Positions 21,609-23,188 of a stretch of 64,000 nt of DNA are shown in pieces. How positions within the stretch are numbered: the stretch's first letter is position 1; every line of letters begins with the position of its first letter. The notes under the pieces are model-generated. The model had not been told where the DNA came from. It made no database searches and worked only from the letters and a program-made list of their open reading frames with translations. The stretch is from positions 1 through 64,000 of the forward strand of contig NZ_JAATWC010000001.1 in the NCBI RefSeq assembly GCF_012979235.1. Reading direction: 5' to 3'. A program made the translations under genes and the position numbers. The stretch comes from Dissulfurirhabdus thermomarina. GTDB taxonomy: Bacteria; Desulfobacterota; Dissulfuribacteria; Dissulfuribacterales; Dissulfurirhabdaceae.

Positions 21609-22811
21609 ATGCGCCGGCCCCCCCACGCCCTCCGGCGGTGGATCCCGGCGGCCCTGGCGGCCGGGTTGCTCGTGCTGGCCCTCGTGATGCACCTTAAGTG
21701 GCGTCCCGGCCCGGAAGTGGGTCCCCTTCGGGCCGCCGCCCCCCCGGCGGACCTCGCCGTCCACCCCGGCCCCGGCATCGACGCCGCCCTCGCGGCCGCC
21801 CTGCGCCACCTCGACCGCCTCGCGCCGGAGACGCCCCTGCCGCCGCCGGGGCCGCGGGGCCGGTCGGTCACCACCGCGGCGGCGCTCCGGGACACCGCCG
21901 CCGAACTCCGCCGCCTCCTCGCCGCGGGGCTCCCCCCGGAGCGCCTGGACGCGGAGATCCGGCGGCGTTTCGCCTTCCTCGCCCCGGCGGCCCCCGGGGG
22001 TGAGGCCGGGGACGTCCTCGTCACCGGGTACTTCCAGCCCCGGCTCCGGGCCTCCCGGCACCGGGCCCCCGGCTACACCTATCCCCTCTACGGCCGCCCC
22101 CGCGACCTCGTTCGGGTCCCGCTCCGGGACTTCGACCCCGGGCTCCCGGACGCGACCCTCTGGGGGCGGGTGGACCACGGGCGGCTCCGCCCCTACTACA
22201 CCCGCCGCCAGATCGACTGGGAGGGCGCCCTGGCCGGCGCCGAGGTCCTGGCCTGGGTGGCCTCCCCCATGGCGGGGCTCGAGCTCCACGTCCAGGGATC
22301 GGGGATCCTCGACTTCCCGGACGGCACCTCCCGCTTCGTGCACTACGCCGGCAGCAACGGGCGGCCGTACCGGTCGGTGGGCGCCTGGCTGATCCAACGG
22401 GGGCAACTCGCCCCGGAGGCGGCGGACTGGCCGGGCATCCGGGCATGGGCCGCGGCCCACCCGGAACGGCTCCCGGAGCTCCTCGCCGCCAACGCCCGCT
22501 ACGTCTTCTTCCGATGGGAAAAGGAAGGCCCCCTGGGGAGCCTGGGCGAGCGCCTGGTCCCCATGCACAGCGTGGCCCTGGACCCGGCGGTCTACCCCCC
22601 GGGGGCGGTCCTGTACCTGGAGGTCCCGCTGCCGGGCGAGCCCGCCCCCTACCGCGCCCTGGTGGTCAGCCTGGACACCGGGGCCGCCATCCAAGGCCCG
22701 GGCCGCGTGGACCTCTACTGCGGCACCGGGCCGGCAGCGGGCCGCCTCGCCGGCGCCCTCCGGGCCAGGGGCCGGCTCTTCCTCCTCTTGGGACCGGGAT
22801 CGAACCGCTGA
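21609..22811 (+). CDS. mltA: Membrane-bound lytic murein transglycosylase A
   Basis: 400 aa from the ATG at 21609. The frame is open far upstream across mdh, but that is a shadow. One N-terminal hydrophobic segment (about 12-28) lacks a clear lipobox Cys, so it may be a signal anchor. The MltA barrel includes VTGYFQPRL, LYGRPRDLV and VQGSGILDFPDG. A C-terminal 3D domain carries the aspartates in VSLDTGAAIQGPGRVDLY. It cleaves glycan strands of peptidoglycan to 1,6-anhydro products. Confidence 0.94.
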   Translation: MRRPPHALRRWIPAALAAGLLVLALVMHLKWRPGPEVGPLRAAAPPADLAVHPGPGIDAALAAALRHLDRLAPETPLPPPGPRGRSVTTAAALRDTAAELRRLLAAGLPPERLDAEIRRRFAFLAPAAPGGEAGDVLVTGYFQPRLRASRHRAPGYTYPLYGRPRDLVRVPLRDFDPGLPDATLWGRVDHGRLRPYYTRRQIDWEGALAGAEVLAWVASPMAGLELHVQGSGILDFPDGTSRFVHYAGSNGRPYRSVGAWLIQRGQLAPEAADWPGIRAWAAAHPERLPELLAANARYVFFRWEKEGPLGSLGERLVPMHSVALDPAVYPPGAVLYLEVPLPGEPAPYRALVVSLDTGAAIQGPGRVDLYCGTGPAAGRLAGALRARGRLFLLLGPGSNR

Positions 22812-22817
22812 AGGCGT

Positions 22818-22850
22818 AAAAAAAAAGGGGGGGGCTTTTTCGCCCCCCCG
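22818..22850 (-). terminator. Rho-independent terminator of the candidate sRNA
   Basis: A seven- to eight-bp G/C stem (C7 at 22843-22849 with G8 at 22827-22834) has a short loop and, on the minus strand, nine T (22826-22818). The plus strand has no T-run after the hairpin, so it is not primarily the mltA terminator. Confidence 0.8.
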
Positions 22851-22856
22851 AAAAGG

Positions 22857-22938
22857 TTCCCCTGCTGGCTTAAGAAGGATGGAGGTGGGTATGTTGGTCG
22901 TCTTTGTTGGAGATGGTACAGAGGGACCAGCAGGGGAA
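22857..22938. repeat. Perfect 12-bp inverted repeat enclosing a 58-nt loop
   Basis: TTCCCCTGCTGG at 22857-22868 is exactly complementary to CCAGCAGGGGAA at 22927-22938. It forms the closing stem of the candidate sRNA. Confidence 0.9.
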
Positions 22939-22958
22939 TATGTTCATTTTGTGATTCC

Positions 22959-22987
22959 TTTATAACGACTTCGACTCCGCTTGTCAA
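22959..22987 (-). promoter_or_regulatory. Strong sigma-70 promoter of the candidate sRNA
   Basis: On the minus strand TTGACA (22987-22982), exactly 17 bp, then TATAAA (22964-22959). It is among the best promoter matches in the window and points into non-coding sequence. Confidence 0.75.
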
Positions 22988-23188
22988 GCGTCCGTCGCTT
23001 TGGGCGGGATGACCCGACGGGGACCTCGGAGGCCCCACCGGGCGGCGTCTCGGGCGATGATCCGCCCACAGCGCACCGACGATTCCCCATCGTCGGGCCT
23101 TCCGGCCCCGCCCGGTTCGATTCTTGCAAATTCATTGCCAACTCTGTACCCTCTTGCCAGGCACAGCGGAGACGTGGATCATCCCCTC

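Follow-up and report, generated by a model that had tools for sequence, protein, structure and literature searches.

The 64,000-nucleotide stretch of Dissulfurirhabdus thermomarina DNA analysed here (the window) carries on its minus strand a gene for a small RNA that almost certainly represents a real, previously uncatalogued family. It is a new family within a known kind of regulator, shared by many hot-vent sulfur bacteria and noteworthy for its frozen loop, its terminator-embedded architecture and its Hfq-less hosts. The best single explanation of its function, to which we give a probability of about one half, is that it is an Hfq-independent RNA that blocks ribosome-binding sites through the motif CACCUCC in a C-rich loop.

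The initial annotation, made from the letters of the window, had described at 22987-22818 on the minus strand a TTGACA-17-TATAAA promoter, a perfect 12-bp stem closing a 58-nt loop (22938-22927 with 22868-22857) and a G/C hairpin (22849-22828) followed by nine T (22826-22818), and each element lies where it had been placed (Table 1). The promoter agrees with the consensus at 11 of 12 positions, a score equalled by none of 200 shuffles of its own upstream region. Transcription would begin about 7 nt past the -10 box, near 22952, giving an RNA of about 125-135 nt in D. thermomarina; in relatives it would measure about 100 nt. The folding energy of the D. thermomarina RNA is -44.9 kcal/mol, compared with -28.7 +/- 3.5 kcal/mol for dinucleotide shuffles (z -4.6). 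The sequence is present in a single copy in the genome, flanked by mltA (+ strand, ending at 22811) and by a DUF4390 gene with ntrY and ntrC beyond it, these genes lying on the strand opposite to the RNA. The locus has its own promoter, a structured body, an intrinsic terminator and an intergenic position, as small-RNA genes generally do. The "AT-rich island" in which the gene was said to sit is a relative dip rather than a truly AT-rich segment: GC content does drop, to 49.7% over 22818-22990 versus 71.1% across the window.

Table 1 Features of the small-RNA locus, in window coordinates.
Feature	Position	Strand	Basis
-35 box TTGACA	22982..22987	-	sequence; TTGACA also upstream of most relatives' copies
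-10 box TATAAA, spacer 17 nt	22959..22964	-	11/12 match, 0/200 shuffles equal
5' stem arm TTCCCCTGCTGG of 12-bp stem	22927..22938	-	fold; compensatory changes among relatives
58-nt loop, C-rich, G-poor	22869..22926	-	composition 24 C, 17 A, 13 T, 4 G
Loop core ACCCACCTCCA with CACCTCC	22880..22890	-	alignments; predicted unpaired 0.97 here
3' stem arm CCAGCAGGGGAA	22857..22868	-	alignments with relatives
Extra GC terminator hairpin GGGGGGGCGAAAAAGCCCCCCC	22828..22849	-	absent downstream of relatives' copies
Nine-T tract, putative 3' end	22818..22826	-	sequence

Conservation in other families puts the locus well past what chance would give. In the comparison with relatives that had been proposed at the outset, promoter, stem and terminator all proved conserved and the stem covaried. 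When 99 relatives were searched, blastn recovered from most families of Dissulfuribacterales, the order of D. thermomarina, a 78-nt block that corresponds exactly to stem plus loop (84-99% identity, E down to 1e-36), set between flanks that cannot be aligned. Standard pairs occupy 99.5% of stem cells in 42 aligned members and 8 of 11 stem pairs have changed on both sides, in an alignment that was fitted to the model and is hence biased towards the stem; independent MAFFT alignments nevertheless agree, with 3 and 5 pairs altered on both sides, and RNAalifold gave the same helix unprompted. The covariation score is 0.431 versus 0.134 +/- 0.015 for shuffled controls, and no more than 0.091 when the partners are slid. 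Across members the two arms run from CCCCTGCTGG/CCAGCAGGGG through CCCCTGTGGG/CCCACAGGGG to CTCCCCGGGGG/CCCTCGGGGAG, and a secondary structure conserved by compensatory changes of this sort is a mark of a small RNA.

The initial annotation had looked to the stem for conservation. The stem does covary strongly, but by the alignments it is the 58-nt loop that has changed least. The segment ACCCACCUCCA is unchanged in 41 of the 42 copies, as is the core ACCCACCTCCA, from which L035 differs by one base, and the loop as a whole is nearly invariant throughout the order beside those unalignable flanks. CACCUCC is predicted to be unpaired in all 41 members that were folded (median 0.98, minimum 0.82). 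Members L126-L131 of family f39 have an additional 7-bp hairpin within the loop (AUCGUCU/AGACGAU) that has no counterpart in other lineages and does not take in the CACCUCC core.

The family is confined to two groups of bacteria. Of 46 genomes searched in the order, 28 matched a covariance model strongly; these genomes span 9 of the order's 11 families and have one copy each. When 395 genomes sampled evenly over the phylum were searched, the only further full-length matches were in families f72 and f97, and the final model found the RNA nowhere in these 395 genomes outside the order and a second class; weak matches of 40-45 nt elsewhere were simple terminator hairpins that lack the loop, and the counts leave them out. 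Within the second class, which we infer to be Thermodesulfobacteria, 15 of 41 genomes hold one copy (f72, f97 and part of f39). The named matches from a scan with the exact pattern are metagenome-assembled genomes labelled Deltaproteobacteria, Thermodesulfobacteriota, Thermodesulfatator sp. and similar. Carriage by phages, viruses or plasmids was considered and rejected, as the exact loop pattern was not found in viral contigs and plasmids gave no match. Three models recovered no homologue from families f2 and f5. Short terminator hairpins do match the model in f2 genomes that lack the RNA (L107, on contig C48 of G026, and another on contig C190 of G024), the one in G026 pairing CCCCTGCCGG with CCGGCAGGGG around a tiny loop; such hairpins may be either chance matches or remnants left after loss of the loop.

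The signals at either end of the gene recur among relatives. Most copies are preceded by TTGACA with a -10-like box 15-18 nt further on, in flanks that are otherwise unrelated. Among 36 copies examined, the promoter match exceeds 95% of shuffles in two thirds, and a clear promoter is missing at a few (L021, L089 and L100). At the 3' end, most relatives within the order have the stem directly abutting a T-tract, so that the stem is itself the terminator, an intrinsic one whose loop is very large. The D. thermomarina stem is trailed by just four T, and the second GC hairpin with its nine T takes over. A terminator is conserved, then, but the second hairpin is a local addition, peculiar to this genome.

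Comparison with known RNAs supports the status of a new family. The window gave zero matches to Rfam 15 at gathering thresholds, and six divergent members matched no Rfam family. Among the weak minus-strand matches is suhB/mmgR (RF00519) at 16 bits and E 0.96, where the gathering score is 41; suhB/mmgR is likewise a small intergenic RNA, of alphaproteobacteria, but it differs from the present RNA in lineage, Hfq background and architecture. The best hits fall far below gathering thresholds, and we reject membership of any known family (6S, SRP, tmRNA, RNase P, Csr, suhB, ar7 and others). The earlier failure to match the RNA to 6S, SRP, tmRNA, RNase P or CsrB-type RNAs is borne out by this search with the window and the divergent members. 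In the literature we found no paper describing the RNA, and the sole paper naming both Thermodesulfatator indicus and ncRNAs uses the organism only in a tree. With promoter, stem and terminator conserved, the stem covarying and Rfam negative, the reading of the locus as an undescribed small-RNA gene is upheld.

How might such an RNA act? CACCUCC is the anti-Shine-Dalgarno heptamer of 16S rRNA. We propose that the stand-alone gene, with its sigma-70-type promoter and intrinsic terminator, would produce an RNA in which one strong hairpin presents a long, C-rich, single-stranded loop. The exposed CACCUCC and a second motif, CUCCA, would pair with G-rich Shine-Dalgarno and start regions of several mRNAs and so block ribosome binding, acting in trans with no need of Hfq; the stem and U-tail would shield the RNA and end its transcription. 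A search for Hfq (PF17209) found none in 46 of 46 genomes of the order; the same search matched in 5 of 14 control genomes, and 18 of 51 other genomes searched in the phylum have Hfq.

There are precedents for regulation of this type. RNAIII and IsrR, C-rich regulators of staphylococci, aim exposed C-rich motifs at Shine-Dalgarno sequences; they belong to another phylum, have other structures and are not matched to the present RNA through Rfam. A closer parallel is sX13 of Xanthomonas, which represses G-rich mRNAs through C-rich loops and does not need Hfq (PMC3771888). Like the present RNA, sX13 is trans-encoded, of similar size (about 115 nt) and equipped with C-rich loop sequence, which here amounts to 24 C of 58 and displays the C-rich motif in the loop; the loops of sX13 pair with G-rich motifs near start codons (PMC3771888), as is proposed here. 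The architectures differ, however, in that sX13 is built of three stem-loops whose C4/C5 loops are short (PMC3771888), whereas the present RNA is a single hairpin with a 58-nt loop bearing CACCUCC, and we saw no sequence relation between the two.

Searches for targets produced leads and several negative results. In three sampled genomes GGAGGTG, the complement of CACCUCC, is more frequent at ribosome-binding sites than 50-80 nt upstream (13 vs 2, 4 vs 0 and 7 vs 1 genes), an enrichment that is expected for any anti-Shine-Dalgarno heptamer. Energies of duplexes between the loop and ribosome-binding sites in three sampled genomes (about 400-460 kb each) were no better than those of shuffled loops. 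The core complement TGGRGGTGGGT matches the window at 22880-22890 on the + strand, which is the sRNA core itself, and in six sRNA-bearing genomes (G003, G006, G014, G025, G038 and G429) its only match is the sRNA locus. One perfectly paired mRNA target conserved in all hosts is therefore excluded by this 11-nt scan.

Complement sites away from the sRNA gene fell at start regions in 6 of the 40 cases inspected; these are weak and non-universal candidates, leads rather than proof. In two genomes of one genus (L275 in G243 and L274 in G395) an MscS-type channel gene carries at its start ATGGAGGTGGGTATGG, complementary to the core over 14-15 nt across the start codon. An exact core complement, TGGAGGTGGGT, forms the ribosome-binding site of homologous Cas6/RAMP-like proteins in two families (L261 on G037:C165 and L296 on G017:C163), the resemblance to Cas6 being our own judgement and the G037 protein being Pfam-negative at E 0.001. 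The remaining sites lie at the start regions of genes for a nitroreductase (G343) and an exporter-like protein (G305). By eye the loop looks strikingly able to pair with 16S rRNA around GGAGGAAGGUGGGGAUGACG, a pairing that we rejected: with Burkholderia 16S as a stand-in, energies lie within the range of shuffled loops, and only f97 exceeded the shuffled mean by more than 2 sd, a value that one shuffle equalled.

The serious rival to the anti-Shine-Dalgarno mechanism, and the main one, is that the invariant C-rich loop binds a protein, for example a cold-shock or KH-domain protein or another single-strand binder, which would be sequestered or guided in the manner of CsrB or 6S; we consider this rather unlikely. 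It draws strength from the extent of conservation: within the order, more than 40 nucleotides of the loop are nearly invariant, spacers such as CAACAAAGACGACCAACA included. That is more than a short pairing seed requires, and it counts against a mechanism based on pairing. The repeated CUCCA motifs are possible protein sites, and the target scans gave no convincing mRNA partner. Against it, CsrB/CsrC sponges consist of multiple hairpins with GGA in their loops, whereas the present RNA has one hairpin, four loop G and no GGA motif of the kind found in CsrA sponges. The RNA also lacks a bulged stem like that of 6S and is Rfam-negative, and the conserved core is exactly the anti-Shine-Dalgarno heptamer.

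Readings in which the RNA acts in cis have to contend with its changing neighbourhood. In D. thermomarina and several other families of the order it lies antisense between mltA and DUF4390/ntrY; some f9 genera have it at a different locus; and of 12 loci examined in the second class, 11 place it 41-111 nt upstream of a dnaJ-type gene. The same loop at genomic positions that depend on the lineage argues for function in trans. That the hairpin is a cis-acting terminator, or a terminator-embedded riboswitch, governing a downstream gene on the same strand is improbable. For most relatives in the order the hairpin does serve as the intrinsic terminator, a same-strand gene follows within about 30-110 nt in some f9 genera and in the second class (there dnaJ), and aptamers embedded in terminators are known: the HMP-PP (thiS) riboswitch is described as a cis element before thiS whose conserved loop sits within the hairpin of an intrinsic terminator (PMC6478431). 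The present RNA, by contrast, has no constant class of same-strand downstream gene and is often flanked by opposite-strand genes only, as it is in D. thermomarina and in most other families of the order. Downstream genes vary by lineage while the loop does not, and a TTGAC element usually found just past the T-tract in the second class suggests that dnaJ has its own, separate promoter. At L096, L103 and L126-L130 this promoter-like element overlaps or adjoins the terminator T-tract of the sRNA gene, a tight layout by which that gene and dnaJ could be coupled.

It is more improbable still that the RNA is a cis-antisense regulator of the mltA-DUF4390-ntrY-ntrC cluster. Its antisense position between mltA and DUF4390/ntrY, in the window and in several other families, means that a read-through mRNA would hold an exact complement. 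The same loop occurs, however, at other loci in some f9 genera and in the whole second class, and among 12 RNA-less genomes checked at the mdh locus those of f2 retain the mltA-DUF4390-ntrY cluster without the RNA. A protein-based scan of genome contigs for the neighbouring DUF4390 gene gave no match. Finally, a conserved small protein or leader peptide, encoded by MNIFPCWSLCTISNKDDQHTHLHPS on the minus strand or by MLVVFVGDGTEGPAGEYVHFVIPL behind GGAGGTGGGT on the plus strand, can be dismissed. Both frames are open in D. thermomarina, and the ribosome-binding site of the plus-strand one is ideal, but indels of one base occur among relatives (L027, L030 and L031) and the ATG has been lost (the plus-strand one in the second class, the minus-strand one also among relatives). 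The stem, moreover, covaries, and conservation runs per nucleotide without regard to codon position.

With a loop nearly unchanged over nine families and still to be recognised in the second class, this single-copy RNA must be important to the cells that carry it. RNA-based regulation is poorly known in thermophilic Desulfobacterota that disproportionate sulfur or reduce sulfate. A broader proposal, which we advance tentatively and with the odds against it, is that in these Hfq-less thermophilic sulfur bacteria the terminator-embedded loop of the new family is a global post-transcriptional regulator, either as an anti-Shine-Dalgarno mimic for many mRNAs or as a dock for an RNA-binding protein; if true, it would differ from the global regulators based on Hfq and Csr. 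The family is supported by covariance and new to Rfam, and the models built here could annotate it in new genomes. An RNA of 100-135 nt would offer a defined handle on Hfq-free small-RNA regulation in these bacteria.
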